From Tethya wilhelma (taxonomy: Eukaryota > Porifera > Demospongiae > Tethyida > Tethyidae), in NCBI GenBank assembly GCA_964030475.1, contig CAXIPT010000004.1, positions 698,437-762,436 of the forward strand: a stretch of 64,000 nt of DNA, given 5' to 3'. The notes under the pieces are model-generated. The model saw only the letters and a program-made list of their open reading frames with translations. It was not told the origin of the DNA and did not search any database. A program made the translations under genes and the position numbers. Positions within the stretch are counted from its first letter, which is position 1, and each line of letters opens with the position of its first letter. Below are positions 1 to 29,274 of the stretch, piece after piece.

Positions 1-3000
1 GGTTTGTCCCCATTTGTCCAAAATGTCCAGGAGATGCATTAGGAGGTAAAGATTGCATTGGATCATGTTGTTGTCCCATTGCCATGGATACAGGTACATG
101 CTGCTGCTGCTGCTGCTGTTGAAAGTTCTCTAGATACTGCCCACCATGTTGAACACCTTGTACATTTCCCTGCTGTTGAGGGTAATTCAATTGTTGATGA
201 GTGTTTCTCATCCGTGGTGAAGGCATGGGATGGTGACCCTGTCCTGGTCCTTGTCCATAAGGTTGGTTAGGCTGCACATTAAAGTGCTGGACATTGTTGT
301 AATCCTGTCTAGCTTTGTATTCTGTAAGACTCTTCTGTTCTCCATCAGGCTGTAGCCTCTGACGCTGGTGGTAGTTTGGATTGTCTCTGCTACTCCCTGA
401 GCCAGCTTGCCCACGTCCTTGGGCCTGCATCTGGTGTAACTGGTTTCGACGCATCTCTTCCAAATTGCTAGAAAGGAAACCTTCCTCTCCAATGCTGGCT
501 GCGGATCCACTCAGACCCTGGTACTGAGAGGGAGCAAGGTAGCCTGGCTGTTGGGTCCCGACGGTGGCTTGGGTAGGAACGTTGTTAGGATTGTAAGGAA
601 ACTGAGTCTGTCCTCCACAGAAGAGAGAGATCGATGGTATTGCAATTGAAAAAAAAAACAAACTAAAACAATATTTGATATCTTATAGATAATTATGAAG
701 CTCTAGGAGCTATACAGTCATTACTACAAACAAAAATACAGTCATGCAATACACCAACAAAGGCTTAGTAAAGTCAAAGTACAAAAAACACTATACCATG
801 TTCACAGCTGGCTGAGGAAGGGTTGCTGGATCTATAGGTTGACTAGATTCTGAATCAAGGGTCATGAGTGTGAGCTGGACGTGAGGATGAAAGAAAATTA
901 TAGTTAAGTTGAAAATTATATAAACTCACACACAACATCATAGCTCCTCCACCTCTTCCTAAGAAGAGTCATCCCACACCTCCTTACCAGACAGAACAAC
1001 NAAAAAAAAAAAAAAAAAAACAGCAAGAAAGAGGCAAAAACCATGATTCTAAGGGATGGGGGGCCATCATGAACCACCCTCCGCTTTCCCCCTGGATCCA
1101 CCACTGCACACACACACACACCTTGGGTTGTTCTGTCTGGTAAGGAGGTGTGGGATGACTCTTCTTAGGAAGAGGTGGAGGAGAAATGTTGTGTTGTTTT
1201 AAAATGGCCTTCAACTGGTCATTGTGTCTGAACAACACCTGCAAAGCATTGTTCACACATATTGAATATCATTACAGACAATGTCATTCTCATGAGTGCA
1301 GCAAGGGTTACAGTAGTCGTTTTGTATGTCTGTGCTAGCCTCATTCCCAGGCTCTCTCCCAGTGAATATTTATGCACACGCGCACACAAAAATAGAGCCT
1401 GGGAATGAGGCTATGTCTGTGCGACTGTGGACTTTTCTTTGTTCACTCTATATCTCAAGAACGGAAGGCTCAGTCTTCAAAAGCGACATACCAAGGTAAA
1501 ATATCAAGATTATCTAAAAAAAAAAATTACACGTAGCATTCAACAAAAACCTATAGCTCCTGAGATCTGAAGCTTTTCAGCCTCTCGAGTGCTAAGCTTC
1601 TAGGTCACACCTGCTGATCATGCCCATTTGTTGGTTTATGCATTATTTAGAGTTGACTCAAAGCTGAATGTTTTTCCTGACACAACACAGAAGGAGCTGA
1701 GAAAGGATATATACTGACTCACTTTTGTAGGTAAATTTAGCTGCTATACTCTTCTTAAGCATGCTGTTTTGGCATATTATAAACAAGTTTTTATTGAAAC
1801 TCAGTTATGCATGACAGGTAACTCTGTCGTCTGTGGTTACCTTACAGCATACTGCTTGCAGTTATCAAACATAGCCTAATCATGTCAATCATTTGTAGTG
1901 ATCAAATTGGTTTATATTATGCAGTGTCCTCCAGCAAGCACATGGTGACAGGTAGATTTATCCAGCATGTGTGAGCATGCATCATTGATCATACACTGCA
2001 TAAAATTTGTTAAAGCACTAAGGGTTAGGCACCTTGGTGCCTTTCCATTAATGTACGGGTAACAATGATGGTTGCACACATGTATATAGTTAGAAATTCA
2101 GCTAGCTCTGCAAAAACTGACGTGAAAAAAAATTAGTACAAAATCAGCTCAAAGCTTGTTTGGATCAACATATTCATGAGCTAACTGGTACTCACATCAT
2201 ATCGGTCTCGCAGTTCTTCGTACTTTCTCTTCACTTGACGAAGCTCATTTTGAACAAGCATCATATCACTTTCAGTTTTCTCCTTCTCAAAATGAGCCTA
2301 ATGTTATATGTGTATATGGTGAATGTGTGTGTGTGTGTGTGTGTGTGTGTTTGTCTTTTGCCATTGCCTAGCAACCAAAGTTTTTATAGGCTAAAATTGC
2401 TGGTTACTGGCTGGGGGAGGTGACAATAGAGTAGCTAGCTATAGGGTTCACAGGGGGTCAATGGCAAACAAAATAGTTGCATGCCCTTAAGTGTGCGGCA
2501 CTCGACCATTCATTGAGTACCTCCCACTTAAGGGTCATGCAACTATAGCATGACATTTTGTGTGAGGAGGGGATGGGGGGGAAGGGGGGGTCCAGAGAGA
2601 GGATATTTACCTTTGACTCAGCATCTTCATTTGTTTGATCCAGTGTCTCTTGGTACAACTGTATTTGTTCCTGTAAAGCACCTCGTGTCTTTATCAGTTG
2701 ACCTCTTGTCCTGTCTAGCTCGGCATAGGTTTCTGTGTATTGACCTTTGACCCTCTCTAGCTCAGCTCTGGTGTTATTCAGTTCAACTCTGTACTCTTCC
2801 ACTTGTTTCCTCTTCTGTTTCACTTGTTGGTTCTTGCCCATCACCTCAATGGTCTTCTCTTTGACAGTTTCATCTAGCTGGTTCCTGAGTTGAGCCACTT
2901 CCCTTTGAACTCTCTCAAGTTGTTCATTAAGACTTTGTTTTGTAACATTTGCAATCTCAAGCTCCTCTCTGAACTGGTCCAGCTGACGTTCAAGAGCTGC

Positions 3001-4438
3001 AGCTGTATGTTCAAATCCAGTTTTGGCTCTCTTTGTGGCTTCAAGTTCTTTGTTGAGTTCTGCTAAAGAGTCATACTGGTAAGAATGCAGACAATGTATA
3101 ATTGTGTATTGTACTTGTGATCCCAACAAGAGGAGCAAAGAAGGCAAACTAACAACTACAATTGAAGTACATATAGTAATAGTATTATGGTATGTTAGTA
3201 AGAATCAGCTCTGGTTCTACATTATTATTTTGTATGTACAAAAGTTATGTAATATCTCCAAATTCTTGTGACACAAAAGTTAAGTTCATGAAAATCCTCT
3301 TAATTAACTGTTTAGAACCAATATTCGTGAATCGCGATTTCTGAAATTATACTCTTATACGGTTTTCTAAATTTTCATGATAATATTATATGGTCCAATC
3401 ATGAAATTCACTAAACTATACTGTGCCACAAAAATACGGTTGCTACGTACACGCAACATAATCATAATATTATGCATTTTGCATTATGATAATACTTACA
3501 TTTTTTTGACATGGTAGAGGATAATCTTTCACCATTCTTGAATACCTTTTACCCAATGCTTGTACTCTATCTCTCAGTTCAGCTGTCTCTGGTCGTTGGG
3601 TTGGGTTGTCATGGAGACACTGGGTGATAAGAGGGTACATACAGTGATCACGGCCGATTTTCTCCAAAGCTACTCTTCGTCTTTTTACTTCACCATTTTT
3701 CTCCTGAAGAGCTTTTGCCATAACTTGTGCAGGAAGTCTGGCAATCACTTCAGTATCCTCCTGGTTAATGGCGAACAGGGAGAGGTGACCAAATGAGAAT
3801 ATGTCGATTTTGGGAGTACATTCAGGATTCTCTGTCAGTGCTTCAGGCGGCATATAGTATGGTTGTCCGGGAGCTGTTGTGTGTTTGTTAACAGTCCTCA
3901 TATCTCGTGGGGTAAGTAGCTTGGCTACACCAAGGTCAGCAATTTTGGCACGCCCATCAGTTGTGATGAGGACATTACGTGCCGTGAGATCACGATGGAC
4001 AATCTGAGGATCGTGAGTGTGTAGGTAGAGAAGACCATTGGTTACGTCTAGAAGAATAGACAGTTTGAGGGGGAGAGAAACTTGTGGGTGTGTCTCAAGG
4101 AAAGATGACAAATCAGAATGAAGGCTCTCCATTATCAGTGTAAGGTCATCAATTCCCCGCCCATAATGTACACCAATGAAATGAACAATGTTTGGATGTT
4201 TGAGACGACTCAGTGTGATACATTCACTTCGAAACTTTCGTTTTATGTTTTCACTATCTCGGACCTGGTACACTAATTCTTTGTGTATCTTCTTAGCAAC
4301 GCACGGCAGTCCGTTCAAAGTGACGTTATAGATGACTCCATAGGCTCCGTGTCCAGCCTCTTCACCGTCTTCTCTCAGTCCTACCACATTAGTGAGAACA
4401 AAGGGAGCTAATTCATCACCACCTCTATGTGCAGCCAT
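1..4438 (-). CDS. Kinase gene 1: TKL-like kinase with coiled coil and Q/N/P-rich tail (3' end outside window)
   Basis: Six phase-0 exons: 4438-3500 (kinase), 3075-2611 and 2297-2196 (coiled coil), 1238-1122, 874-797 and 607-<1. The kinase has a glycine loop GHGAYG (residues 29-34), lysine 49 in VAK, an alpha-C glutamate in FRSEC, HRDLTARN (from 148), DLG in place of DFG (168-170) and PPE in place of APE, so it looks catalytically competent and TKL-like. The second exon encodes about 155 residues of continuous heptads rich in E, K, Q and R. A short Pro-rich exon (PPPLPKKSHPTPP) follows, then a tail rich in Q, N, P, Y and G with a CAG-coded Q run. The ATG at 4438 was chosen because it gives the short leader before DELAPFVL seen in the paralogs; an upstream in-frame ATG at 4480 is less likely. 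Substrate unknown. The missing end may or may not carry a zinc finger. Confidence 0.8.
944..1127. repeat. Fold-back copy of an exon segment beside an ambiguous base and poly(A)
   Basis: Bases 944-1000 repeat, in inverse orientation and almost without mismatch, the exon segment at about 1129-1185. The copy ends at an undetermined base (1001) followed by a run of about 19 A. A short foldback touching an N and a homopolymer looks more like a sequencing or assembly join than a biological element, but a real small inverted duplication cannot be excluded. Confidence 0.6.
1109..1121. repeat. Short CA/TG repeat at a splice donor
   Basis: A (CA)n tract on the plus strand reads (GT)n on the coding minus strand directly after the exon ending CCCAAG. 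The donor GT is therefore the first unit of a microsatellite. Confidence 0.6.
1336..1413. mobile_element. Hairpin MITE, TAGCCTC..GAGGCTA family, 9-bp target duplication
   Basis: Arms of 20 bp (1336-1355 TAGCCTCATTCCCAGGCTCT and its inverse at 1394-1413) flank about 38 bp. The 9-bp direct repeat TGTCTGTGC borders both sides (1327-1335 and 1414-1422), a convincing target-site duplication. The element lies in an intron of kinase gene 1. Related copies are at 48561-48657 and, as one arm, near 33550. It encodes no protein, so a non-autonomous DNA transposon is inferred. Confidence 0.75.
2322..2350. repeat. (TG)n microsatellite
   Basis: Uninterrupted TG dinucleotides in an intron of kinase gene 1, just upstream (in gene orientation) of its third exon. 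Confidence 0.9.
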
Positions 4439-4504
4439 GTCAGTTATTATAATGGTCACGTGCACAGCCCCACCCATCAATGAATATTGCCTCAGTGGAA
4501 ATTA

Positions 4505-4690: not shown

Positions 4691-6874
4691 TCAGTGATCT
4701 TCCACGACACTCTCTTGAGTTGTTGCATCTCTCTCCTTTTTCTTTTTCGTCTTGTAAGCTTCTTCCTCCAACTTCAACTTGAACACTTTCTTTGTCACCT
4801 TTTCAAGCTTGTCACTCTAAAAAGGGAAAGAAAACACTCCAGTTAACCAATTGATTGTACAGTAATAATGTTACCTTTTCATCTTGTTCTATCTGGTTGT
4901 GAATATCTTTGTCTTGACATTTCTTTTGCAAATCTGTTGAGTGACTTCTAAATTCCTCCAATTCTTTTGCCATCTCTTGTGTCATGATGTTTCAATGTAG
5001 CTGCTTGGTTACGCCAAAATTCAACATCATCCAGTAAGTTTTGTTTCTTAGCTAGCTCCTTTTTAGCTTGCTCCAACTCCTGTTGAGCTGCTTCCATTTC
5101 AGTCTTGGTGTGCTGTTGATATCTGGTGTTTGTAATCCATGGTAACCTCATTGAATAGTGTTTTCTGTTCATCAAGTTCTTTTTCTAGGTCAGCTAGCTT
5201 GCTATGAGCTTTTTCTCTATCTCTTCTCTCATCTGTAAAATCCTTTTTATAGACCATGACCTATATATATATATATGTATAATTATTAAAGATAATCAGT
5301 ATTCATGTAATTATCTGGGCTTAATAAGCATGCATAGCACAAGCCATGAAGTTTTACATAAACATTTCTACCTGGGCTTGAACAGCATCTAATTTTTCCT
5401 TCAGCTCTGCGTTTTCATTTTCCAGCCGAAATACTTCCTTCTGATGATTATTTAGATCTTCAAAAGACTCTGAAAGCCTGTACATTTGATCTCGTAGGTC
5501 TTCGTTTTCAGCCTTTGTAGAAGATGCATGCCTCTTCTTTGACAGCAAGAAGTTCCTTTTTAGTGACCTCCAGTGTTTCCAGTTGTGACTGGGCCTCATA
5601 AAGATCCTTCTGTAACTTACTTTGCTGTTGCTAAAATTAATAAAAAAGAATATATAGGGTCATCAATGTCAGCCATATAGTACATTCAATAGTAGTGTAT
5701 ACGACCACTACTACTACCAAGATCTGCACGTAGTGGGGGTACGTGCTTGAGTGGGCTCATTGATAATTTGAATTAAGGTACAGTGCAGTGTGGCCACTCA
5801 TGAATTTTGCAGGAATTAGGGTCATTAATTATGTAACACCAACAAAGCCATGCAATCATTTGCATTCATATGACACGATATTACATAATATACCTTCATA
5901 GAAAGCACTTCTTTCGGCTCAAAGGTTCCTTTGTAAAGGGCCACAATGTTTTCAAGACCTGCAGCCTGGGGGTGCTTCATACAAAGTTCATGTAATTTTT
6001 CCGTAAGTTCAGCTATCTCTGGTCGTCGAGTTGGGTTGTCATGGAGACACTGGGTGATAAGAGGGTACATACAGTGATCTGGGCCAACTTTTTCAACCGA
6101 AGGTCGTCGTCTCAGTACTTGAACACCACCTTGCTTTTTGGCTGCTTTTGGAAAGTCCAATAGTTCAAAGACTTGAGGGTCTTCCTCATTGACAATAAAT
6201 AATGAGACACAACCAAATGAGAAAATATCAATTTTTGGGGTACACTCTGGATTCTCAGTCTGAGTCTCAGGAGGCATGTATGATGGTCGACCAGGAACTT
6301 TGGTGTGCTTTATATCAAGAGCATTCAGAGCTTGTAGAGTGAGTAGCTTGGCCATTCCAAGGTCTGCAATTTTGGCACGGGCATCAGAAGTGATGAGGAT
6401 GTTCCTGTCAGTGAGGTCATGATGGACAATGGGAGGGTCGTGGGTGTGGAGGTAGAGAAGACCGTACGATACGTCCAGGAGGATCGACATCTTTAGAGGG
6501 AGGGGAACTTGGGGGTGTTTCTTGAGAAAAGCATTTAAATCGAAAGTTAAACATTCCATAATCAGGGTTATATCACCTTTCTCTTTTCCATAGTGAACAC
6601 CAATGAAATGGACAAGGTTTGGATGCTTCAATCGACTCAAAATGATGCATTCATTTCGAAATTTCTTCTTCATAGTTTCACTGTCTTCTACTTCATCCAC
6701 TAAAGCTTTGTGTAGTCTCTTAGCAACGCATTGCAGACCATTTACGGTGACGTTGTAGATGACTCCATATGCACCTTGTCCAGCTTCTCCGCTGTCCTTT
6801 TTCAGCCCCTCGACATTTTTGAGAACAAAGCGAGCTAGCTCATCACTTCGGGCCCTCCGTGTACGTGTTGCCAT
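4691..6874 (-). pseudogene. Kinase gene 2: TKL-like kinase with coiled coil disrupted by three frameshifts
   Basis: Exons by homology to kinase gene 6: 6874-5894 (kinase, 327 codons, open), 5630-5372, 5260-4875 and 4816-4691 (ends in TGA). The kinase keeps GQGAYG (32-37), lysine 52 and DLG, but HRD reads HHD, losing the arginine that normally helps position an activation loop. The coiled-coil exons carry three +1 shifts, near 5531, 5105 and 4985. Each is followed by a stop in the original frame, and each lies where the paralog can be aligned across it. The splice sites are intact. There is no zinc finger; the last exon encodes a basic helix like that ending gene 6. Either the gene is decaying or the assembly has small indels; a truncated kinase-only protein is also possible. 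It is the only family member without the NRF-1-like site. Confidence 0.7.
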
Positions 6875-7068: not shown

Positions 7069-10000
7069 TCACACTTGATGATTGTCATCAGTTAATTCTG
7101 CTGTCTTACAATGGTTCACATGATACCGAAATTCTGGATCATTTTGAAATTTCTTTTGGCACTTTGGACACACCAAGCTGGGATGAAAAGGACGATCATC
7201 TTCACTCAGGCTCAATTCAGGAGGCTGTTCATGGTCGGTATTTTTCTTGCAGTCACACTGGTTCATATGAGCTTTAAAATTTTGAATCTCTCCAATCCTG
7301 AACCCCTTGCTACACATTGGACACACCAAGTTGGGATCAAAAGGAGCTGCACCGGAACTAGCTTGTTTGTGCACTTTTTCTCCCTCAGTGTCTCGAATAT
7401 CCCTATCAATGTTCGTTGCTGAAAATTTATTTGAGTCTTGAGACAATCTTTCTGTAGGAAGAGGTGAAGGTTGAGACGCTAATAGATTTTGGTCTGCTTG
7501 TGGTGTATGCCTAGGTTTAGGAGGTCGAGGTGGAGGGTTAGCAGAACTTGACTTCTGAGGGTGCTGTTCATGTTGCTCCAAAAGTGCTTCAAAGTTTACT
7601 GACTGTCTGTCACCTGATTTTGGTAGCAAGGATGCATGTGCTTGTGGTACCAAAGGACCTATGTTCGGCCAAGGTTGAGATGCTAGATTTTTATCTGCTT
7701 GTGTTGTACGCCTAGGTTTAGGAGGTCGAGGTGGAGGGTTAGCAGAACTTGACTTCTGTGGGTGCTGTTGCTCCAAGAGTACTTCAAAGTTTACATGTTG
7801 TACTGACTGTCTGTCACCTGATTTTGGTAGTGAGGAGGAATATGTTTGTGGTACTGAAGGACTCATGTTGGGCTTATCAGGTTGGGAACTAGCATGTTGT
7901 GTTCCCAAGGGTTGTACACGTGAATGTGGTATGTCCAGCACTATAACAAACAAAACAAAACAGTTAATTTTATTAACATTCATACATGAGTGGTGATTTA
8001 GCTAGAACAGTTGATTCAGCAGGCTGAATTTATGATCTACATACCTGGAGGATTTGCACCTATGTATCGTCCACTTGTGCTGCTACTACGCCTGTATTTA
8101 GGAGGAGCAGAGGCTTCTGCAGCTGGGATACGAGAAGCATCTTGGTTCATTGCAGGTACCACTGAATTTCCTTGTGGATTAGGATTGCTATTGATTCGTT
8201 GTTGAGTATAATGTGAGCTGTGGAGAGAAGGCTGTGATGTAGCTTGCTTGAGATCTTTTTCTAACTTTTCTATCTTCACTTTTGCATCCTGATATTTTTG
8301 CCGTTCTATGTGTAATTCAGTCTTTAACTCATCTACTTCTTGACGCAAGTTATCTTTTCTATTAACTAGGTCATCGTTCGACCTCACCACTTCAGAAACT
8401 ATGGCCTCTGATTCTTTTTTTACAGTTTCAGTTTCTCTTTGGGCAGTACTTAAATGTACTTTAACTCTGGTAAGCTCTTCTTCTAACTCAGTTCGTTCGC
8501 CTTTAAGAGTGTCTTGTGCTGTTCCCATTGTTTCAAATTTCACTGCTAGACCTTTCTTCTCCGCTAGGAGTGTTTCAACAGTCATTTCTAACTCTTTGTT
8601 TCGCTTTAGCAATTGTTTTTCCCCAGGAGTCTGTGTCCGCCTATCAGTTTCTTCCAGTTGGGCTTTCAATCGAGTATTTTCTTTTACAAGTCCGCTTATT
8701 TGTATTCTCAATTTATTTTCAGCTTCGATATCAATAGATTCTGAAAATTTAATAAGCTTGGCTCTGAGTCCCTGGTTTTCCATTGTCAGTGTTTCCAATT
8801 GTGAATGAGCACTATTTAGTAATCTCTACATGTCAATATAATAATAACACAATACCATTACAGTTATAATAGTGATATTCATGACCATTCCATACACAAT
8901 TATCATGTAATGGACAATAATTGCAAGTTAGTTTAGCGTAACGTGAACCGTGACATACCTCATTTTTGACTCCCTGATCCTTTAGCTCAAGAATCGTACG
9001 ATTCTGCTCCTCAGAGTGTGCTCGAAGTGTGGCAAACTGATCTTTCTGTTTTGCAAAATTCTCACGACATTCTTCCAATTCACTTGTAATCTTCAAGATT
9101 TCTTGACTTTGGCTAGCCTGTAAGATAATGTGGAAACAAGACACACTGATGGATTCACTTGCATGACAACTTTGACAAATAATAGTTATGGTTAATAAAT
9201 TTACATCGGTACATGAATGTAATGATCCATTACTAACATATGTCTCAATATAGTATTATCTCCTAACCTGTTTTACAGCTTCTTCAACTATTGGATGTTG
9301 TTTGCAAACTCTCTCCACTTTTTCTTTGAGTTCAGTAGCATTTGGTCGTTGGATTGGGTTGTCATGGAGACACTGAATGATAATAGGGTACATACAGTGA
9401 TCCTGACCAAGCTGTTCAAGTGCTGGTTTTCGTTCTTGAATACTTTTATTTTTCTGATGGTCTTCAATGACAACAAATTCACAATCTTCTTGGTTAATTG
9501 TGAACAGGGAGAGATGTCCGAAAGAGAATATGTCAATTTTGGGTGTACATTCAGGATTATCTGTCAGTGTTTCTGGCGGCATGTAGTATGGTTGTCCGGG
9601 AGCTTTAGTGTGTTTAGTAACATCCATCAAAGCTTGTCGTGTGAGTAGCTTAGCTACACCAAGGTCAGCGATTTTGGCATGACAATTCCACGAGATAAGA
9701 ATGTTGCGAGCTGTAAGATCACGATGAACTATCTGTGGATTACGTGTGTGCAAATAGAACAGACCCTGAGTTACATCCATGAGAATGGATAGTTTGAAAG
9801 AGAGAGGAAATTGTTGATGTTCTTCGAGAAAACAGGCCAAATCAGATGGTAGACATTCCATTATCAAGGTCAGGTCATTCCTATCCCTACCATATTGAAC
9901 TCCTACGAAACGGACGATGTTTGGATGTGAAAGACGGCTCAAAATGATACATTCATAGCGAAATTTCTTCTTGATATTTTCACTATTTGGTACTCTCCTC

Positions 10001-10173
10001 ACCAAGGCACTGTGCAGTCTCTTAGCAACACAGGGTTCTCCATTTACAGTGACCTTATGAATGACCCCATACGCTCCATGTCCAGCCTCTTCACTGTCTT
10101 CTGTCAGTCCCTCCACGTTATTGAGTACAAAGGGAGCTAGTACATCACCACCAACAGAATTACCTTGGGCCAT
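7069..10173 (-). CDS. Kinase gene 3: TKL-like kinase, coiled coil, SH3-ligand repeats, two UBZ-type zinc fingers
   Basis: Four exons (10173-9268, 9117-8959, 8825-8045, 7940-7069) sum to 906 in-frame codons, 905 residues. Kinase: GHGAYG 31-36, lysine 51, glutamate 74, HRDLTARN from 150, DLG 170-172, PPE. Then about 250 residues of coiled coil. The last exon has two tandem copies of a roughly 55-residue unit, each with SGDRQSV, VNFE[AV]LLEQ and PPPRPPKPR (a PxxPx[KR] SH3 ligand type). Two zinc fingers follow: CPMC-x14-H-x3-C, and CPKC-x12-H-x3-C, the latter spaced as in optineurin. This C2HC type binds ubiquitin in optineurin, TAX1BP1 and NDP52; ubiquitin binding here is inferred. It is the most complete member of the family. 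The start is the first ATG before VLAPFVL. Confidence 0.85.
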
Positions 10174-10357: not shown

Positions 10358-13300
10358 TTAATCCTGAATTAATGGGATAGATAATTTTTTATTACAATTC
10401 TCCACATGAGCTTGAAACTCTCTTGCCTCACCAACTCGGAAAGTCTTCTCACATACTGGACACACAAAATCAGGACTGTATGGAAGTTCAGAAACGGTTG
10501 AGGCTCGATATCGATACATAGCTGTTAACACATCTTTACTGGTTTGCTTATTCAAGCTATATTTGATAGGAGTGGGAGGTGTACTAAGTGCCTTAGTGAG
10601 TTGTCTATGTGGCCTACTAATAGTAGGTTCTTCTTCACTAGATTGTTGGGTAACTGAGAGACATGGATTGCTTTGGGCTCTGGAAAGTGGAAAATCAGTG
10701 CCAAGAATTGTCGCTAGAGGAAATGGTTTATCGCTTAGGGCACTTATAGGAGGAGTGTCATGACTGCCAGTGAGTGTCTAAAAATTTGAAAGGGACATAG
10801 ATTAATTTTTGTCACTTGAAATGAATAACTCAAATAATCATAAAATTCTAGTTTTCTAACGTACAGTTACTTGGACTTCCAGATTACCACAAAGTTGAAC
10901 CAGCTGTTGGTACTGCTTCTCCACCTTTAGTCTTAAGCCTTGTTCTTTCTGGAGCTCTGCAGATGTGTGTTCCAGGCTTGCTTTGAGTTCCTTCAGCTCA
11001 TGGAGAAGGGCTTTATTTTTCTCCATGTAACTATCAGTTTCACTCGCAAAAGTTTGAGCCTATTATTGACAGACCACATCATGTACACTTAATATTGTCA
11101 GCAATACTGAATTTTTCAGCCAATTATTTAATGCGGCTTCTTTTGAATTAATTCATGTATGTATGTTTGGTGTTTGACAGGCCTACCTGTTTCTGATGTA
11201 ATTCAGTCCGTTCTAAGCTTGAACTCAGTTCGTCTTTGTATTGAGTTATCATCTCGTAATACTCATTTCCTTGCTCATTGTACAAATGTACCTCATCCTG
11301 CCATATTAATTATGTACAAACAATGGTATTATATAAAGGAACTGTGTCACTATTATAGTTAACTAAAAATAGAAATTGTGACATTTTTGGTCCAAAATTG
11401 TGATTGTTTGTGTACTGCCGCATTTGTTACTACTGGCGTAATAATAACTACAAGAAGTGTGGCTCACTTCGCTTGCCACGCTCCTTGCATGTGTATGAAG
11501 CATACTTATGTTTACTGCTAGATGTATGCAAACACAGACATCTGCATAGTATAAGCTAATAGCTGGGCATTGATAACTATGTGGTTAGTTTTTATTACCA
11601 ACTGTGTACCTCCGCATAAGTGCACTTAAAATAATTGTAAGGTTCCTGGTCGTGTTTGATACTTTTAGCAAATTCCTGTCTACTATTTAGTGACACAGTT
11701 CCTTTAATACCATTACAAGTGAACTCATAGAGATACTTCTGAAGGAACAACGATGAAGCTATAAATACACTTTGAGTATCCATAACTTCCTGGAAAATTA
11801 TCCTTCATTTACTCTAGCTAGTGCATGCTTTATATTATAATAATGTAATTACTATGTACATGCATACGTACCTGCAGATCTTTTACTTTTTTCTGTAATT
11901 TATTAAGAGTCTTGTTGTTGTCTTGCTGGACAGCTGCCATCTGTTCTTTGTGCTCTCGTTCGGTTTCTTCAAGTCTTCTTCTTAAAGTGTTTCTCTCTCT
12001 AGTAACTTTGTCGAGTTTATTGTAAAGCATTTCCAATTCTTGAACAAGCAGTTTCTCCTTGTGTATATAAAGATAGTGGGAACATTTTAGTTATGTTCAT
12101 GCACTTAAAAAAATTTATTAATACCTTAAAGACACTATTATTGCAGGTACTAATTTTAGCGATTTTAGTGCATAAGCCTATTTCTGCCAATTTTGAGTAC
12201 TGTCCAAAATTGATTTCCAAGGAAAAATAATTCGTATAAATAGAAAAGAAATTTGTTAGTGAGTGTGTCCACTTCAGTTTTACTCTCGCCGCTATCAGAC
12301 CCTGAGCACAGTTCCTCCAGTATCTAAATTAAAGGTTGGAAGAAAGCAGGAATTGCAGGGATACTGGATGGAACTATTGTTCTCCCTCCTGAAGATCCTT
12401 TTTGAAGATATCTCTTGAGAATAGTGATAACTCTGAGAGTAATGATACATGACATTGTAGCTATAGTATTGTATTGTTTTCCCTGTGCATATCACTGTTG
12501 AACTTTCTAATAATATCTGAAAGTAAGAATGATGGTAAACGCTCTGAATTCGCTAAAATTAATACCCCCCAAATCCAATATCCTTTAAATCCGCTAAAAT
12601 TAGTAATAGTGTCCTTAAGGTAGATGCTCATCACTATTGTAACATTATTGTTAAATTAATATTTACCTTTTTATCGATCTTTTCTGGGTGCTTTGTGCAC
12701 AGTTCTTGTAGCTTTGTCATCAACTCACAAGCATTAGGCCTCTTGGATGGGTCATTTTCAAGACACTTGGTTATAAGGGAATACATGCAATGGTCACGCC
12801 CAACTTTATCAAGTGAAGGCTGGTGTTTCTTGCTACCAGATCGTTTAAACCAGGCCTTACGTTCAGTCTGGACAGGTGTATCAGATTCCTCCTGGTTTAT
12901 TGTAACTAGTGAGAGATTACCGAACGAAAATATGTCAAACTTTGGTGTACATTCTGACAAATCAGTAGCTTCAGGCGGCATGTACATTGAACTCCCGGGA
13001 GCATCTCTTTGCTCACTGACAGCCAACAATGCTTGTTGCGTGAGTAATTTTGCTACACCTAGGTCAGCAATTTTGGCTCTATAATCATTTGAAAGTAGAA
13101 CATTGTGAGCAGTAAGTTCACCATGAACCACTGGCGGATCATTGGTGTGGAGATAGTCAAGACCACTTGCAACATCTAAGAGGATTGAGAGTTTGATAGG
13201 CAGTGGGAAGAGAGGGTGAGATTCAAGAAATGACGATAAATCATAGGGTAGATGTTCCATTATCAGCGATAGTTCACTTTGCAAACTCCCATAATGAACA

Positions 13301-16945: not shown

Positions 16946-18954
16946 ATGGCAGAAGGTACTAGGAGTGGTGTTGACGATGAGCAGCTTGCTCCCTTTGTTC
17001 TCTCTGATGTTAAAGAGTTGAAAAAACACAGTGCACTAGAAGACAATGAAGCTGGACGTGGTTCTTATGGAGTCATTTATAACGTCACAGTGAATGGTCT
17101 ACCATGTGTTGCAAAGAGAATACACAGTATTTTTGTGGACCAAGTGGAGAACAATGAAGTTATGAAGAAGAAATTCCGTGATGAATGTGTCACCCTGAGC
17201 CGTCTTAAACACCCAAACATTGTCCACTTTGTGGGAGTTTGCAGCAATGCTTTGGATCTCATGCTGATAATGGAGCAACTACCTTCTGATTTATCATTCT
17301 TTCTGGAGTCTCACTCACAAGTTCCCTTGCCTCGTAAACTGGCTATTCTACTAGACGTAGCTCATGGTCTTCTCTACCTTCACTCACACAATCCTCAAAT
17401 TGTTCACAGAGATCTGACATCTCGTAACATTCTTCTAACAAGCGACTGTCGAGCAAAAATTGCTGACCTTGGAGTGGCAAAACTACTCACACCAAAAGCT
17501 TTGATGGCTATTAACAATCACACTAAAGCTCCTGGACAGCCATTGTATATGCCGCCAGAAGCACTGACAGAGAATCCTGAGTGTACTCCGAAAATCGACA
17601 TTTTCTCTTTCGGACATCTTTCACTGTTTGCTATAAACCAGGAAGATACTCAAGTGTTCGAAGTCACTATTACCCCAGAAATGCTCGCACAAGGATCTAT
17701 TCAAATGTCAAAACGAAGACAAGCGCTGGAAAAAGTCAGCGAAAGTCACTGCATGTATTCTCTAATCATTCAGTGTCTTCATGACAAGCCATCCAAAAGA
17801 CCAGAAACTGCTGAGCTTGTAGAGAAATTGCATGAATTATGTGTGAAGTATCCACTTGTTTCCCAGGAAACAGCTGGAGTGAAGGATGTTTGCGAAGTGT
17901 TACAAGACAACAAGGAGCTCCAACTCAAACTGGTCAAGTTTGCCAAAGCTATTGATGGTGAAATAGAACTGAACAAAACCATACTCGCACTTCAAGATCA
18001 CGTAGCGGAATTGACCGATCAGAGAGACAGTGCACAAGCCCAGGTAAATCAATTTAGTACTTTGATATGCAGGGCAGCATACACGGTCATGTAATTTGAT
18101 GCTTTGTTTACAATAATGCTAAGAAGCTTGTTTTTTTTTTTTCAAAACTGCTGACCTCACAACAGTTGTATACTTCATTTTCACATCTATAGGTATTGGT
18201 GTTCAAGCAAGATTTTGCCGATGAGAGAAAAGATAGAGAAGCAGCTCATAGCAAGATTGCCGACTTGGAGAAGGAACTTGTCAAACAGAAAACACTCTTC
18301 AACGACTTAACGATGGACTTCAAACACGAATTATCAATGGCACAGCAAGACAAGGAAGCAGTACAAAAGGAGCTCAAAGAGACCAAGACTGCTTTAGCTG
18401 AAGCAGAAGAGTTGAACAAACAACAGAAAGAAACTGAAGAGTATTGGCGGAAGCAGGCAGCCCAGTTGCAACAAGAAGATAAGTTTTATACGCATACCGC
18501 GAAGTTAGAGGAGCTGCAAGCCCAAAACGCACAACTACAGAAAGATAGTCAGACGAAAGAAAGCCTGGTAAAGCAGCTGAAGAGGGATTTGGATAAGAAG
18601 GTAAAAGAATAATAATTAGTGATTGGATACTAGCTGTAATTGATGCATCATTAGCAAGAACCACCAACAGATTTTGGTAATAATAATATTATTATAATAA
18701 TGTAATTGGAGTCTAGCACTAAAACAACACTAATGAGTCACTAGCTGTGTTTGTATATTATAGATGGTCATAATTTTGGGACAAAATGCAGTAATGACAT
18801 TATAACTTTATTTGTACATAGTTTTATGTTCAACATGTTTGTTGATTCTTGTATTATACACATCATGATTCTGTAGACTAATGAGTTGGAGAAGGTTACG
18901 AAGAAAGTTCAGAAATTGGAAGAAACCCTCAAGACAAGCAAGAAATCAAACTAG
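16946..18954 (+). CDS. Kinase gene 6: TKL-like kinase with coiled coil, no zinc finger
   Basis: Three phase-0 exons (16946-18043, 18193-18600, 18877-18954) give 527 residues. Kinase: GRGSYG 37-42, lysine 57, HRDLTSRN from 154, DLG 174-176, PPE; apparently active. From about residue 320 it is continuous coiled coil, starting in the kinase exon and ending in a basic helix. It is the only family member on the plus strand and the intact counterpart of decayed gene 2: both have VLVFKQDF/VMVYKKDF at the start of the second coil exon and EKVTKKV near the end. The lack of a zinc finger is genuine, because the frame closes with TAG inside a homologous last exon. Likely a dimeric partner of the longer members (inferred). 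Confidence 0.87.
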
Positions 18955-19172: not shown

Positions 19173-21595
19173 TTAATTCTTCCCCTCACACTGGTTCACG
19201 TGAGCTCTAAACTTCTGAATCTCTCCAATCCTAAATGGTCTGCTGCACATCGGACACACCAAGTTGGGATCAAAAGGGCGATCTGTATTTGTTGCAACAT
19301 CAGTACCTGCGGGCTTAATGTACTGATCAATGATATTCTCAATATCTTCTTGCATAGAGCTCCTCCAATGTTCTTTGCTTGACGATGAAGAGAAAGTTTG
19401 GCCTCTTTGCACCATACTCTGATCTCTAGCATTAATATTGATGTTACCACTATCTATATTGTTGTCAGTGACATGTTGTCTTGGGTTTAAATCTTCCTGC
19501 ATTCGTTCGTCAATGCCTTGAGATTGCGAATCCCCTACCGTTGGAAGTGCTTCAGTTTGGTAGGTGGGAATAGGGTAAGCTGATTGAACTTGGTTAATTT
19601 CTTGAGGAAAATCAATGTTTTCACGATGTGGAGAAACACTTGCCGAATTTACAGGTAGTACAGCACTTCCATTTGACGTATCATGGTTACTTTGACTGTA
19701 GTTTACAGCACTAGACACCGGATGAAAATATTCGTGATGGAGTTCAACATTTGGCTGAAATGGTGCTTGAGCAGATTGGAATAGAGGGATGTTTTGATAG
19801 ATTGGCTGTTGCTGGTGGGGGAGTTCTAGCATGTCTCGTGTGCTTTCATCTCCTGGTTTGTTTGGAACAGTCTCATGTGCATGCTCTTGAGCTTGGACAT
19901 ACTCCTGACTCTTAGCTTGTGATATTTGCTGATCTTGTCCAGGTAGGTGTGCGTTATAAAATTGTTCGTGATCTACAGGTGATTCTCCTTGCGGAACTAG
20001 GTGCACTTCTTGTAGATCTGAATTCACATCTGGTTGTTGAGCAAACAATTGATTCTGTTCACGATGTGTGGATGATTGTTGATAATATTGTACGTGTGGC
20101 AGTTGTGGTTCAACCATGTTGTATGCACGTGGTCGGAAACCATGCTGAATTGGATCGAGACTTGGAACTGATATTTCGGGAGATTGGAATGGGGAGAAAC
20201 GTACGCGCCTTTGATTCGATGAAGTAGGTGAGGAAAGATCACTTGGAGTTGTGCCGGTACCAATGCTTGTGGAAGGGGAAGGTAGATTTACATATAAGGA
20301 GTCGTTTGAAGAAGTGGGAGCATTTGCCAATGGTACAGGTGAGGCTCTGAGGGGTAGGTTCGTAGGTTGGGCTGGCCCACCTGCTGAACTTTGGACCAGT
20401 TCAAGATTGGGAGTGACTAGGTGTAGTTGTTGTTGTTGAGTTCGAAAAGTGGAAGCTCCTTCAGCACTGTGAACAGCTCTTATCGGTAACTTGCTCACGT
20501 CATGCATGTTGTTTGGGGTGCTTTCAACTGATTTGGCATGCTTGAACTCTTGCCTGTCATGTCCGTCGAATTGGTTCTGAAGTTGCCTAGGGATTTCAAT
20601 GGCTGTCGTGGGATACTGGGCCTCTTGTGGGTTTTTTTGCTCCAATTGTTTGTCCTGTGAACAATGGAATGTAAAATAGTGCAAGGTTATCATGTGACTG
20701 TGTACATAATCTAGTTTCCATAGCAGCAAGATATGCTTCACAATCACATTTCCATGGTAACACAGATGTGATCATATGACATGCATAATCTAGTTTCCAT
20801 AGCAACAAGACATGCTCCACAAACGTGATTCAACCATGATTGTTTCCATGGCAACACAGATGTGTCACTCTTAAGAGGTAGCTACACAATTACTATAGTA
20901 AACAAAAATAAAAAGCTAACTTACTTGATCTTCAACAAAATCTTTCAGTAGTTTCACTTGTAGTTGCAGTTCATCCTTTTCAATCTGTAATAGCTGCGTG
21001 TGTGAGTAAATGTACTACGTATTAAACATTGATCTCAAAACACATTATTAAATTCCTTACATTATTCTTTGCCTTCACTTGTGTCAACTCGTCTTCCAAT
21101 GACGCAACTTTAGCAGCAAGTTCCTATAGAAACGAATGGTCATGAACATGCACACATGATGATGAAAATATGCCAATACAGATAGATTTTACCTTGTCAG
21201 TTCTTTCTTGCCCTTTCAAGTCAACAGTCTGCTGGTCAGACGGCTTCTTCTTAAGTTCTTTGTTTTCAGCTGTCAGCCGCTCACACTCGTATCGAAGTAG
21301 CTGAAGTTCCTGCTTAGCTACTTCAACTTCCTGAGCCAGGGCCAGCTGTCGAGTGTACTTGGCTTTCTCAGCATCATGGCGTTCTTTTTGTTGCTCCAGT
21401 TGGTTTTGCAGATCACCTATTTTGCTGTGAGCAGCTTCTCTATCTCTTCTCTCATCATTGAAATCAGATTTAAAGACTTGAACCTTAAATAGTTTGTATA
21501 GTAACAGTGTCATAAAAATAATTATACTATTATGGTACTATATATACAGCTGATTTATAATGTTAATTTTGTGGCATGCAGAGGAGTATAGATCA

Positions 21596-21829: not shown

Positions 21830-21865
<36 letters not shown>

Positions 21866-23233
21866 TCAAACCACAAAGTGAAAGCAGGAAGTCGTTAATA
21901 ATAGTCATGAATATGATAACATTGTATCAGTGGATTTAACATCATGAATACTGGAACTATAGCCGTGCATGCCACAAGTATTGATAGTCACACACATACA
22001 CATACACACACACACAATCAGCAGGGCACATCACATGCACCCAAAATTCACGTGCATGGTCAAGGTATTGTGTGATTGATAGTAACATCCCATCTCTTAG
22101 CATCATTTTCATGCTCTTCTCTTTTCTCTCCTTTGATCTTGCACTGTGAGTGTAAGGTCAAAGGAGAGAGCCTTAGAACGAGTTGTGAATGTCTTAGTGT
22201 TTGAAACATACTGGCCATATTGACCGGTCTTCCATGCATAGCTTGATAGGCTAACACTACCCAATTCTATAGCAAGAGTTAACCTCACCTGTTTGGCATC
22301 ATAATCCTCTGGTGCATTCCTTGGGTACATGGTGCACAATTCTTGCATGCTCTTTGTGAGCTCAGCTGTATCAGGTCGTTTGTCTGGGCTGTCATGGAGA
22401 CACTGGGTGATGAGAGGGTACGTGCAGTGATCTTGACCGATTTTTTCAAGTGCTCGTTTTCGTTTTCGTGCTTGAATGCTTCCACGTCTTTTAATATCTC
22501 GGCTAATGTTTTCAAGTTCGAAAACTTGAGGATGTTCTTGGTTTATCGTAAACAGGGAGAGATGTCCGAAAGAGAATATGTCAATTTTGGGAGTACACTC
22601 AGGATTCTCAATCAGCGTTTCTGGCGGCATGTAAAATGGCTGTCCAGGAGCTTTAGTGTTGACGGCCATCAGAGCTTGTGGAGTGAGAAGCTTGGCTACA
22701 CCTAGATCGGCAATCTTTGCACGATAGTCTGAGGTGAGAAGAACATTTCGTGCAGTGAGGTCGCGATGTACCACAGGAGGGTTGTGTGTGTGGAGGTAGA
22801 GGAGACCGTAGCTCACGTCTAGAAGGATGGATAGTTTAAGAGACAAGGCAACTTCGAGACGAGATTCAATAAAATTCATCAATTCGTAGCGCAGTGACTC
22901 CATGATCAAAGCAAGGTCGTGTTTCTCTTTGCCATAGTATACACCTATGAAGTGGACGATGTTTGGGTGCCTGAGTTGGCTTAGGGTGATGCATTCATTG
23001 CGGAATTTCTGCTTCATGTCTTCACCCTTGCGTGCTTGTTTCACAAGAGCCTTGTGTAGTCTCTTGGCAACGTATGGTAATCCGTTTACAGTCACCTTGT
23101 AGATGACGCCATAGGCACCTTGTCCAGCTTCTTCGCTGTCTCTCTTCAAGCCCTCCACATGCGTGAGAACAAAGGGAGCTAGTGCATCAGGACCACCTCC
23201 ATGAGTTGTCAGTTTTCTTCTAAGGGCTTCCAT
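19173..23233 (-). CDS. Kinase gene 7: TKL-like kinase, coiled coil, long disordered tail, one UBZ-type zinc finger
   Basis: Exons 23233-22289 (kinase), 21803-21738, 21483-21193, 21123-21061, 20984-20925 and 20654-19173, all phase 0, about 968 residues. Kinase: GQGAYG 37-42, lysine 57, HRDLTARN from 156, DLG 176-178, PPE. The small middle exons encode coiled coil. The 494-codon last exon is low-complexity (Q, S, P, N, H) with no fold visible, including SLYVNLPSPSTS, a possible YxN phosphotyrosine site. It ends in a finger, CPMC-x14-H-x3-C, followed by EGKN. The ATG at 23233 fits the family; an in-frame upstream ATG at 23293 would add 20 residues. Confidence 0.83.
20688..20868. repeat. Imperfect tandem repeat, two ~90-bp units, in intron of kinase gene 7
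   Basis: Two copies share ATAATCTAGTTTCCATAGCA, CATGCT/ATGCTTCACAA and TTTCCATGG[TC]AACACAGATGTG in the same order. They lie just before the last exon of gene 7 in coding orientation. Confidence 0.6.
21600..21631. repeat. (CA)n microsatellite
   Basis: Uninterrupted CA repeat in an intron of kinase gene 7. Confidence 0.9.
21831..21862. repeat. (TG)n microsatellite
   Basis: TG repeat in the first intron of kinase gene 7, opposite in orientation to the CA tract at 21600 and about 200 bp from it. Confidence 0.9.
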
Positions 23234-24789: not shown

Positions 24790-24885
24790 TCTACGCAGAG
24801 TTGAATCCGGCAGAGTTCGAAGATTTCTGAATACACGGCTTTTCAACAACAAGACAGAGTGTCGCAATGACTGAAAAGTACCTCT

Positions 24886-24893
24886 CTTTTATA
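24886..24893 (-). promoter_or_regulatory. TATA box of WAP gene A
   Basis: TATAAAAG on the minus strand, about 100 bp before the ATG. The surrounding ~60 bp (GACTGAAAAGT..AGCCACATGG..AACAGCCCTGAAAA) is conserved before WAP gene B. Confidence 0.65.
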
Positions 24894-25420: not shown

Positions 25421-25708
25421 TGGTTGTAGAATTCAACCAGATAGTGTCTGCTGTTTTGATGCCTGTCTCAGCAGATCTTCTCAAAGTTTAGGAAGGGTGT
25501 GTGTACCATTTTTTTTGTAGAGGTTGACCAGTCTCTGATTGAGCACCTTAAAAACTGAATGAACAAAGTAGAAAAGTTTCATAAAAATTAACAAAGTCTT
25601 ACAAGCTGTATGCCACAGTAATGAAAATGAAGTAGTCATGCTTCACTGTTAATCTTTACTACTTTGAATAATTATTATTAGCTAAACTGTTTCAAGTTCT
25701 TTAAGTCA

Positions 25709-28173
25709 CTATTGACTAAGACTTCTTGTATGCGCTGAGAATTCCATCCCGTGATCGGGATTTTTCCACGGTGTCCCTTGTGTTGGATAAGTAAATTCAG
25801 TAGTGACTGATGGACTAACTGGAACACTGTTCAAATCTTGGCCTTCTTGCTGAATTTGCTGTTTCTGCATGATAACTTCATAATTCACATAACCTACTGA
25901 TTGCAGTTTGAATTGGGGAACATTTGTACGTGGTGTCGGAACTACAATAAAGAAGAATACAATGTCATGTATCACTGAAGACTGCATGATTGCTTGATTG
26001 ACTATACGAAACTACTGATTACATAAACTGTATACTAAGTTAGTCTATCATACCTGGAGGCTTTTGATAACCTAAGTGTTTTTGACTGTGGTCTGTGTGA
26101 CCAATTTTAAGATAAGGACCACCTTGTAGCTGACCATCACTGTACATGTACACCTGTTGGGATTTTGCTTGAGCTGTTTGAAGCGGCTGCTTCTCTAGAT
26201 CAAATTCTACTTCTTCATCTGGATGAGTGTATCCACCATGTGGATTCACATTAGCTTGGTGATGCATATACTCAGAAGCAGTTTCAATTTGGAACTTTGA
26301 CGGAGAAGGTGGTGGTACTCCACCAGCTCTTAGAGGTTGTTTGGATGGCTGAAAAACTACCTGACCAAGAGGTACCTGCACAATGTATATATAGGAGATC
26401 ACTGCATAGCATAGATAAGGCACTTTTATAGGTCATCCAAATCTGCATAATTTACCTTGTACTCTTGTTGATGAGGTACAGGACTATTTGAGAATTGCTC
26501 CATAGGAGGTTCAGATGTATAATCCTTGTCATGACAAGAGGATGAAACTTGATCACTGAGTTGTTTCTGAGAAATAACTGCAGGATCACTGTTCCTACGT
26601 GAAGCACCTTTAGGTTTTTCCTCAACAGGTGTGAGAAGATTTCCTTGGGTCGTTGAGCGTTTTCTAGTAGAATAACCAGTCATCCATCTTATAGTCTGCT
26701 CTGAGCCTTCTTTGTGCCCTAGCTCGGCCTTCAAATGCAATAATTATTAGGGGCACAATTGCAATTAATGTACATTGTTAATGTTATAGGCTTATAGTCA
26801 TTCATAATTATATATAATACCCCTTGACATACATGATGATCATCCTTCCCGGCATTAGGACCAGACGCAAGTATTTTGGACATTTCTTCGTTTACAACAC
26901 GAAGCCGACAGATTTCCTTGTCTCTTTCATCAATAGTTTTGTACAAGAGCTATAATTATACATAAAAATCAATAATAATATAATGCATGCATGCACGTGT
27001 GTGTTCAATGTAACTCAATCATACTATAGCTATAACATGTCTTATACAATGTCATGCAATCAGGCTCAGCCTACATTGATGGTCCAACGTAAGTTATATA
27101 ACTCACATCAATTAGACTTTCAGTTTCGAGTTCTAGGTTTGTCTCCTTCACTACACTCTTAAACTTTTTTAGACCCTTTGAAATTTCTTTATCAGTCTTC
27201 TTACGGTCTTTCTTGTCTGGTTTGATTTCTTCAGACACTGACACTAGGCTTTTTGTAGCTTGAGCAAGCTGTAAGATACATGTAATAATTATGGATAACA
27301 AATTAAAGCATAATAATGATTAAGAGAGAGATATGGTTGTTATCATTAACAGAATTACTTGGGCTTGAAGAATTTTATTTTCCTTTACGTGCTCACTTAT
27401 CAACCTCTCTGCTCTTGTTTTCAGCTCATAATATGCATCCTTTGACTCTGTTAGCTTCTTTTGAAGTATAAAGTTTTCAACAACTGTTGCAGATTCTTTA
27501 ATTTGATCACCTTTCTCTTTAGCATACTCAGTTTGAGCAAACTCCTGTTTAAAGTCTGCTTTGTTTGTAGCCTAATAGCATAAAAATGTACGTGTATATG
27601 ATACAATCATAGATCAGCTACGTACAGTTAACAACTTAAAGTATAAAATTAATCTTAACATAGCACTAACTTTAGATGATTCTGACACATGGCCTTGTTG
27701 CTCCAAGTTAGCAATTTGCTGATTTATTTTTCTTGAATGTTCACACGCTGTCTCCAGTTGGGCAGTTAATTCTCGAACACCCTAAGTTGCAGTAATTATA
27801 ATCATATCCATGAAACTGAAAGATATTCCTTAAATTTAGAAATAGTTTTGCATTTTCAATATCATCTGATATCCTTGTCAATAATTATATAATAATTGTA
27901 GTATTAATTATTTGTAATATGATATAATTATTGGCTAAAATACCTGCACAATTGCAAACTGAGCCTTTTGTTTTTCCCGAAATGCCTGTACAAAAAATTA
28001 ATTGTCACAGTACAATGGCTACACATTATCCATAAGGATCGAGTCTATATAATTATACCCGAACAATATGTTTTACCTCTAATGTAGCTATTCGTCCCAT
28101 TAAAGTTGCATTTTGGTCTTCACGTTTTGCCAATTCTCTAGATAACCTTTCTAGTTGTTTAGAATACAGCTCA

Positions 28174-28247
<74 letters not shown>

Positions 28248-29274
28248 ATGCATGCGTGCAGTGTGTGTGTGTGTGTGTGTGCACGTGTGTGCGTGTGTGT
28301 GTATGTGAGTGCAATGTGTCTGTATGCATAATATATACCTGTCCATCCAAAGTAGTAATATCTTGAATTGTCTTGGGGTGTTTTGTACAAAGCTCTTGAA
28401 CTTGTTTAGTTAGTTCAGCTGTATCTGGTCGTTGGTTTGGGTTGTCATGGAGACATCGAACAATTAGAGGATACATACAGTGAGTGTAACCAACTTTCTC
28501 AACTGAAGGTCTTCTTTTTAAGACTTGAATTCCTCCCTGCTTTTTTGTTGCTAGAGGGACGTCTGAAACTTCAAATACTTGAGGGTCTTCTTCATTGATT
28601 GTGAACAGAGAGAGATGTCCGAAAGAGAATACATCAATTTTGGGGGTACACTCAGGATTCTCTGTCAGTGCTTCCGGTGGCATGTACAATGGTTGTCCAG
28701 GAGCTTTAGTGTGTTTGTTTATAGCCATGAGAGCTTGTGGGGTAAGTAGTTTGGCAACACCAAGGTCGGCTATTTTAGCATGTCCATCAGAGGTAATGAG
28801 AATGTTCCGAGCTGTAAGATCACGATGGACTATTTGTGGATTGTGTGTGTGAAGGTAGAGAAGACCGTATGTGACGTCGGCTAGGATGGAGAGCTTAAGA
28901 GGGAGAGGAACTTGGTGGTGTGTCTCGAGGAAGGACGATAAATCTGAGGGTAGGCACTCCATGATCAACGTAAGATCACTTCTCTCTTTACCATAGTGAA
29001 CTCCAATGAAATGGACAATGTTTGGATGCTTCAAACGACTCAAAATTATGCATTCATTTCGAAACTTTCTACTTATTTCTTTTCCATTTTGTACTTTTCT
29101 GATTAAGGTCTTGTGCAGTCTCTTAGCAACACAGCGTGTTCCATTTACAGTGACAATATAGAGGACTCCATATGCTCCACGTCCAGCTTCTTCACCGTCT
29201 TCTGTCAGTCCTATGTTTGTAAGAACAAAGGGAGCTAGCTCATCTGGAATAGTAAACTTTCTCAGCACTGCCAT
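25709..29274 (-). CDS. Kinase gene 9: TKL-like kinase, coiled coil, proline-rich tail without zinc finger
   Basis: Ten exons: 29274-28339 (kinase), 28175-28077, 27985-27944, 27781-27671, 27571-27359, 27268-27107, 26949-26833, 26728-26456, 26375-26054 and 25941-25709. They sum to 836 codons, 835 residues. Kinase: GRGAYG 31-36, lysine 51, HRDLTARN from 150, DLG 170-172, PPE. The small exons encode coiled coil. The tail is Pro/Gln-rich and has VGYVNYEVIMQKQ, aligning with the VNFE[AV]LLEQ repeat of gene 3 but with tyrosine. The final intron is phase 1, as in gene 3, yet the last exon stops before any zinc finger. The second exon's acceptor AG is the end of a long CA repeat. (Numbered 9 because WAP gene A, the eighth gene, lies between kinase genes 7 and 9; there is no kinase gene 8.). 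Confidence 0.82.
28177..28310. repeat. Compound TG/CG/TG microsatellite at a splice acceptor
   Basis: (TG)n, then (CGTG)n/CATG, then (TG)n. On the coding strand it is (CA)n running straight into the CAG of the acceptor for the second exon of kinase gene 9, leaving no classical pyrimidine tract. Confidence 0.85.

Follow-up and report, generated by a model that had tools for sequence, protein, structure and literature searches.

Kinase genes with NEMO/ABIN/optineurin-like UBAN tails in the sponge Tethya wilhelma: a candidate family of polyubiquitin-reading kinases

Introduction

Linear ubiquitin is read in well-studied animals by proteins (NEMO, the ABINs and optineurin) that are distinct from the kinases responding to it. 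IKK and TBK1/IKKepsilon combine a kinase domain with a coiled coil and work with NEMO or optineurin (OPTN), and the ABINs are signalling regulators. According to two articles (PMC4999505, PMC11854354), the UBAN of NEMO and optineurin is a dimeric coil which binds Met1- and Lys63-linked ubiquitin chains, while IKK and TBK1 are brought in in trans. Here we describe eight neighbouring genes of the sponge Tethya wilhelma in which a kinase exon is followed by exons for a coiled-coil tail, with a UBAN in the tails of genes 2, 6 and 7. They occupy positions 1-29274 of the stretch analysed (the window; 64,000 nucleotides, bases 698437-762436 of contig C4, in an assembly of 124.6 Mb and 204 contigs). 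We think it probable that the family consists of polyubiquitin-reading kinases, which polyubiquitin would recruit and activate in cis.

With NEMO/IKKgamma and optineurin this family shares the order of coiled coil, UBAN, disordered linker and C-terminal C2HC finger, as seen in gene 7 and in a paralogue at C4:664-668 kb in which no kinase was found. However, NEMO and optineurin recruit IKK or TBK1 in trans, while in the window family the kinase is apparently on the same chain, and a kinase domain forms the N-terminus in place of the N-terminal IKK- or TBK1-binding helix. No paper on a kinase-UBAN fusion was among the open-access matches listed. An earlier reading of this DNA from its letters only (the sequence-only reading) knew of no family with a kinase, coiled coil and zinc finger in this order. 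The genes combine known domains in a new way.

Results and discussion

Kinase exons and their coiled-coil tails

All kinase exons but that of gene 6, which is on the plus strand, are on the minus strand (seven of eight; Table 1). In our splice models, for which exon boundaries were picked by eye from the genome sequence, a GT in phase 0 directly follows each of the eight kinase exons. The intron leading to the next exon measures 70 to 609 bases and is of phase 0 in every gene, and coiled-coil exons come after the kinase exon in all of them. The eight genes of the sequence-only reading, each with a kinase exon and then coiled-coil exons, were thus all found. Judging from the models, the kinase exon would be spliced to the tail exons. 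The frame of the tail is open without a stop in seven genes; the exception is gene 2, whose frame changes twice (exons 5372-5630 and 4875-5260). For the close copies 4 and 5 the ratio of nonsynonymous to synonymous substitutions (dN/dS) is 0.284 in the kinase exon (297 codons) and 0.299 in the tail (264 codons); kinase and tail alike thus evolve as coding sequence.

All eight genes keep DLG and YMPPE, the Lys of the V/I-A-K motif and the helix C Glu. Of the shared kinase motifs proposed earlier, DLG and PPE therefore stand, but the HRD triplet is intact in five genes and altered in gene 2 (HHD), gene 4 (HGE) and gene 5 (HCE). Since Glu replaces the HRD Asp in genes 4 and 5, these two are probable pseudokinases. 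The Pkinase model of Pfam matched both kinase exons scanned with it, those of gene 8 (2.2e-36) and gene 4 (4e-30). Among the best 60 of 948 matches in the PDB, the gene 8 kinase domain came nearest to JAK2 and IRAK4, and we therefore regard it as similar to tyrosine kinases (TK) or tyrosine kinase-like kinases (TKL). In this, and in motifs such as HRDLTARN and YMPPE, it differs from IKK and TBK1.

A UBAN coiled coil in the tails

The UBAN motif (DFxxERxDRE) opens coiled-coil exons of three genes; the exon begins with VLVFKQDFADERKDRE (gene 6), VQVFKSDFNDERRDRE (gene 7) or VMVYKKDFTDERRDRE (gene 2). The best Pfam family for the exons of genes 7 and 6 was NEMO CC2-LZ (PF16516), with E-values of 2.7e-5 (25.0 bits) and 0.0017 (19.2 bits), both below the cut-off of 35.3 bits. 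A search of the PDB with the gene 6 exon gave ABIN-2 as the top match (E=0.014), one of two at E<=10. A UBAN profile was then built from 19 segments of this one genome, window genes 2, 6 and 7 included; seven of the segments had been picked by the motif pattern and the others by profile or similarity matches. Against the PDB it gave 27 matches at E<=10, of which the first 20 were ABIN-2, ABIN-1, optineurin and NEMO, with E-values from 6.6e-9 (ABIN-2) to 0.0012, and the 21st had an E-value of 1.1. Homology of the tails of genes 2, 6 and 7 to the UBAN of NEMO, ABINs and optineurin is thus well supported at the level of sequence.

ABIN-1 and ABIN-2 (TNIP1, TNIP2) share the ER-x-DRE form of the motif and are the best matches of the profile in the PDB. 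They differ from the window family in that they are not known to have a kinase domain. In a review on the NEMO family the phrase "kinase domain" does not occur (PMC11854354).

Optineurin residues D474 and E478 contact linear ubiquitin, and changing them abolishes suppression of NF-kappaB, as stated in an article on this protein (PMC4999505). In our reading of the D-F-x-x-E register, they align with the first residue of the motif and with its Glu, and both are present in genes 2, 6 and 7. Conservation was counted in 25 distinct UBAN-profile matches, among them a kinase-less NEMO-like gene and six matches beyond the seed segments, some of them more divergent. At the first position 20 have D, four have E and one has G, while the Glu is kept in 25/25, the Phe in 24/25, and the Arg, Asp and second Arg in 23/25 each.

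Two details concern individual tails. The gene 2 UBAN scores highest of the family against the profile, despite two frame breaks in the tail at 4875-5630 (-), which may be a pseudogene tail or reflect an assembly error. A UBAN-like pattern in gene 8 was confirmed neither by Pfam nor by the profile, and we regard it as a remnant at best.

The family across the genome

With the CC2-LZ model of Pfam, which is independent of our profile, 12 matches at E<=1 were found in the whole genome, one of them over the cut-off. Ten contain the motif [DE]FxxERxDR, and eight of these ten either belong to the C4 array or have a family kinase next to them; for the other two, at C4:252-256 kb, the nearby family kinase is on the opposite strand only. 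The remaining matches are a kinase-less gene at C3:3250631 and one at C8 in which no UBAN was recognized by eye. The match over the cut-off is a paralogue exon at C3:7819219 (1.2e-9, 38.9 bits; 39.6 bits in the genome search); upstream of it, at a distance of 781 bases, the same strand carries a kinase 45% identical to that of gene 8.

For a map of kinases and UBANs, the 35 of 127 kinases nearest to the query were entered. Twelve of 26 UBAN-profile matches have a family kinase on the same strand within 1.2 kb, with the kinase first in seven cases and the UBAN first in five, and six more have one at a distance of 1.9-3.5 kb. Close pairs, 241-1049 bases apart on the same strand, exist outside the cluster on C1, C2, C3 and C5. 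Four of the twelve close pairs (C1:1068234, C4:588621, 611549 and 694891) were found only in loci taken around kinases, and two of these four are weak (13.1 and 23.9 bits). According to the mapping of UBANs, fingers and kinases, the array holds kinase-UBAN-finger, kinase-finger, kinase-UBAN, UBAN-kinase and UBAN-finger arrangements.

Three further observations concern copies in which no kinase was found. The gene at C3:3249131-3252253 has the UBAN LYHEDFERERQARE (DFERERQARE) and a C-terminal C2HC finger, and probably represents the conventional NEMO/optineurin gene of the sponge. At C4:658622 and 660447, two UBAN exons of identical sequence are separated by about 1.8 kb, apparently as the result of a tandem duplication. 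Directly after a UBAN-finger gene, an open frame which by eye resembles a PP2C phosphatase begins at C4:668847.

C2HC fingers

Genes 3, 4, 5 and 7 end in fingers of the form C-x2-C-x14-H-x3-C, and gene 3 has a second one with x12, exactly as proposed from the letters. A finger profile run over the window recovered these five and no others. Gene 1 runs past the left edge of the window, and a related finger lies 0.3 to 0.4 kb outside (C4:698021-698122). Searches of the genome for the finger gave 15 matches, all but one of which lie at 585 to 718 kb of C4. The spacing is x14 in the window family against x12 in NEMO.

The sequence-only reading had called these fingers UBZ-type and built its ubiquitin-sensing family on them. 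In line with the first part, the finger profile found TAX1BP1 as the top match in the PDB (E=0.002) and NDP52 as the ninth (E=0.017), and in the fold comparison the finger came nearest to the second zinc finger (ZF2) of NDP52 (Foldseek probability 0.41 but E=2.1; root-mean-square deviation 0.8 over 23 columns). However, ordinary C2H2 fingers score nearly as well as the TAX1BP1 and NDP52 UBZ in these sequence and fold comparisons, and the window fingers are C2HC while those of TAX1BP1 and NDP52 are C2H2. The model for the autophagy receptor zinc finger (PF18112) gave 15.4 bits for gene 3 against a cut-off of 23.2 bits and was not listed for the fingers of genes 4, 5 and 7; in the whole genome none of its three matches exceeded the cut-off and none fell on a family finger. 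Since the UBZ models remain below threshold and general C2H2 fingers are not set apart, we rejected the finger as the main proof of ubiquitin binding. The idea of a ubiquitin-sensing family of kinases and pseudokinases is retained, carried now by the UBAN coil, which had gone unnoticed. The nearest kin of the tail are NEMO, the ABINs and optineurin rather than NDP52.

The fingers also bear on the possibility that the genes encode selective-autophagy receptors with a kinase of their own, in which UBAN and finger would bind ubiquitin-coated cargo and the kinase would replace TBK1. Such a role is suggested by the proximity of the finger to TAX1BP1 and NDP52 among solved structures, and optineurin unites a UBAN, a finger and an LC3-interacting region (LIR) according to a review (PMC11854354). 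With a simple pattern compared to shuffled sequence, however, LIR-like motifs were absent or at expectation in six of the seven tails scanned, gene 1 showing the sole excess (3 against 1.0 expected). Moreover, the UBAN is ABIN-like (ERxDRE), the ABINs being signalling regulators (for ABIN1, PMC11854354), and the PF18112 cut-off is not reached. The role in selective autophagy that had been proposed as one possibility is not specifically supported, and we give this explanation a slim chance.

Homologues in other sponges

A search with the gene 7 protein found 227 homologues, of which 120 were examined. Those with a species name are from sponges (Ephydatia muelleri, Halichondria panicea, Amphimedon queenslandica and Geodia barretti), and identity to the gene 7 protein is at most 47% among the 120. 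The TKL-like kinases of Ephydatia (P0039, P0032 and P0045) and Halichondria are about 39-44% identical in the kinase, which covers about a third of the query. Two of the 120 homologues, both taken as E. muelleri (P0032 from its name, P0039 from an Em locus name), have the finger, intact in P0039 and degenerate in P0032. Against a profile of the five window fingers, from which that of P0039 was left out, the best-domain scores were 4.1e-12 and 3.7e-5, respectively. P0032 has an N-terminal kinase and a C-terminal finger, the order present in the window, while in P0039 the coil precedes the kinase. A second match to the finger pattern, in P0099, lies in a low-complexity stretch and was dismissed as chance. 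The kinase-finger pairing is thus seen in two species and the kinase-UBAN pairing in one.

A proposed role as polyubiquitin-reading kinases

The gene anatomy, the UBAN homology, the conserved ubiquitin-contact residues, the size of the family and the HOIP-like gene described below all come from the computation, and from them we infer ubiquitin binding, dimerisation, activation and an immune role as follows. An N-terminal TK/TKL-like kinase exon would be spliced to a tail of the NEMO/ABIN/optineurin type, which may comprise coiled coil, UBAN, a disordered linker rich in proline and glutamine and a C-terminal C2HC finger; the copies would variously keep or lack UBAN, finger or kinase activity. 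The UBAN coiled coil is proposed to dimerise and to bind Met1-linked (or Lys63-linked) chains, presumably made by a HOIP-like ligase of the same genome. A chain, or neighbouring chains, could then gather kinase domains, leading to trans-phosphorylation and signalling, probably in innate immunity. A single chain would thereby fulfil the task that NEMO-IKK and optineurin-TBK1 divide between two. Genes 4 and 5, without the catalytic Asp, and the kinase-less copies may serve as decoys or scaffolds. The immune role is suggested because tandem, domain-shuffling copies resemble immune gene families.

A source of linear chains is likely to be encoded in the genome. On C1, two UBA_HOIP pieces lie at 4762393 (E=0.012) and 4763473 (E=0.09), both under the cut-off; next after them on that strand, at 4765662-4765991, come two PF18091 pieces over the cut-off (E=9.6e-7 and 9.6e-8). 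We take PF18091 to be the C-terminal part of HOIP, and this succession points to a likely gene for a HOIP-like linear-ubiquitin ligase. Searches of the genome for OTULIN and, with PF18394, for TBK1 gave no match; since no control gave a signal in either search, these results carry no weight. Next to a UBAN-kinase gene on C5, and divergent from it, is a TRAF-like gene (2548-3909 (+) of locus L044), possibly a Lys63 ligase: its TRAF zinc fingers and MATH domain exceed the respective cut-offs, while a RING-like match stays below.

Several observations weigh against polyubiquitin-reading kinases. Within the window, the six-frame profile scan gave nothing else at E<=0.01, and hence no UBAN in genes 1, 3, 4, 5 and 8; nor was CC2-LZ listed by Pfam for those exons of UBAN-less genes that were scanned, including the main coils of genes 1 and 3 (for gene 1 the best 25 of 66 families). 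The profile scan found no finger in genes 2, 6 and 8. Gene 7 is therefore the only one with a kinase, an intact UBAN and a finger, and the catalytic Asp is present in six of the eight genes.

At the level of the genome, eight of the 26 UBAN matches have no family kinase on the same strand within 6 kb. UBAN-linker-finger genes in which no kinase was found are located at C4:657-668 kb, and among their fingers is one with 92% identity to that of gene 7 (kinases were sought by tblastn at E<=1e-5 in five stretches, and the bridging stretch was covered with the finger and UBAN profiles only). The modules thus exist apart as well. Together with the kinase-less NEMO-like gene at C3:3250631, and with the fact that the fusion is seen in exon models of the genome sequence with boundaries set by eye, this raises the possibility that the kinases and the NEMO-like UBAN/finger tails belong to separate, adjacent genes which were duplicated together, the fusion being an artefact of annotation. 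Such an artefact would have to account for the phase-0 GT of every modelled gene and for its next exon, coherent and 70 to 609 bases away, for the same-strand pairs 241-1049 bases apart on four other contigs, and for the kinase and finger in one predicted protein in Ephydatia P0039 and P0032. We regard separate genes as quite improbable.

Outside this genome, the UBAN pattern occurs in none of the 120 homologues, where the best profile match was partial (E=0.041), and none was found in two database searches that used the UBAN region of gene 7 or gene 6 as query (394 candidates at E<=0.01 and 226 at E<=10). The pairing of kinase and UBAN is therefore seen in one genome so far, although a 35-residue motif is a weak query in a database of 5.8 billion sequences and its absence elsewhere does not follow. 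Both this and the presence of the UBAN in three of eight window genes, one of them frame-broken, would fit a tail which is a mere dimerising coil, its UBAN-like motif no longer reading ubiquitin. The genes would then be ordinary, perhaps decaying, TKL-like kinases of sponges with variable coiled-coil tails. Against this, the constraint on the motif residues (Glu, Phe, Arg, Asp and Arg) exceeds the needs of a coiled coil and falls at the ubiquitin-contact positions of OPTN, although part of the conservation stems from the way in which the segments were chosen, by motif pattern, profile or similarity. On balance, a mere dimerising coil seems unlikely.

We thus prefer polyubiquitin-reading kinases. 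Whether the array is in addition a one-component counterpart of IKK-NEMO and TBK1-optineurin, that is, directly gated by polyubiquitin and accompanied by pseudokinase and kinase-less decoys, is a more tentative proposal, to which we give slightly less than an even chance. If true, an early animal lineage would have wired ubiquitin to kinases differently, and the array would be a minimal system for asking whether chain binding alone switches a kinase on. With pseudokinases and copies lacking a kinase in one array, it would also show how such switches get built and dismantled.

Table 1. Positions of the features of the kinase array in the window
Gene	Feature	Position	Strand	Remark
1	Kinase exon	3500..4438	-	HRD, DLG, YMPPE intact
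1	Tail exons, coiled-coil and rich in glutamine/proline	2611-3075, 2196-2297, 1122-1238, 797-874, 1-607	-	No UBAN match; by eye similar to the coil after the UBAN at locus L058
2	Kinase exon	5894..6874	-	HHD variant
2	UBAN segment, in exon 4875-5260	5162..5260	-	UBAN profile 67.6 bits
3	Kinase exon	9268..10173	-	
3	Coiled-coil exons	8959-9117, 8045-8825	-	No UBAN found
3	First C2HC finger (x14)	7237..7350	-	
3	Second C2HC finger (x12)	7090..7197	-	
4	Kinase exon	12667..13557	-	HRD to HGE, probable pseudokinase
4	Coiled-coil exons	11872-12057, 11187-11297, 10862-11059	-	Last chosen boundary without GT; GT three bases earlier
4	C2HC finger (x14)	10376..10489	-	
5	Kinase exon	15506..16435	-	HRD to HCE, probable pseudokinase
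5	Coiled-coil exons	15283-15435, 15041-15139, 14739-14945	-	
5	C2HC finger (x14)	14252..14356	-	
6	Kinase exon, including first coiled-coil stretch	16946..18043	+	
6	UBAN, start of coiled-coil exon 18193-18600	18193..18291	+	Last exon from 18877; no finger
7	Kinase exon	22289..23233	-	
7	UBAN, start of coiled-coil exon 21193-21483	21385..21483	-	
7	C-terminal C2HC finger	19176..19289	-	Ends exon 19173-20654; long, probably disordered stretch before the finger
8	Kinase exon	28339..29274	-	
8	Tail, nine further exons	25709..28175	-	UBAN-like pattern in 27359-27571; no finger

Other genes in the window

Near the kinase array, an open frame at 37178-37570 (-) contains a Death domain over the Pfam cut-off (24.3 against 22.6 bits). 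Cysteine-rich exons of secreted type, recognized by eye, are repeated at 23436-24888, 30232-30669 and 35325-35768 (-), and one of them scored just below the cut-off for WAP (18.8 against 20.8 bits). There are also two multicopper oxidase genes (41795-44362 (+), 44341-45582 (+) and 52262-54601 (-)), the first of which has a tandemly repeated 3' part that by eye is letter-for-letter the same at the protein level. Finally, two tandem frames at 56068-56802 and 56866-57600 (-) have an identical translation of 244 residues, and the first of them matches linker histone.

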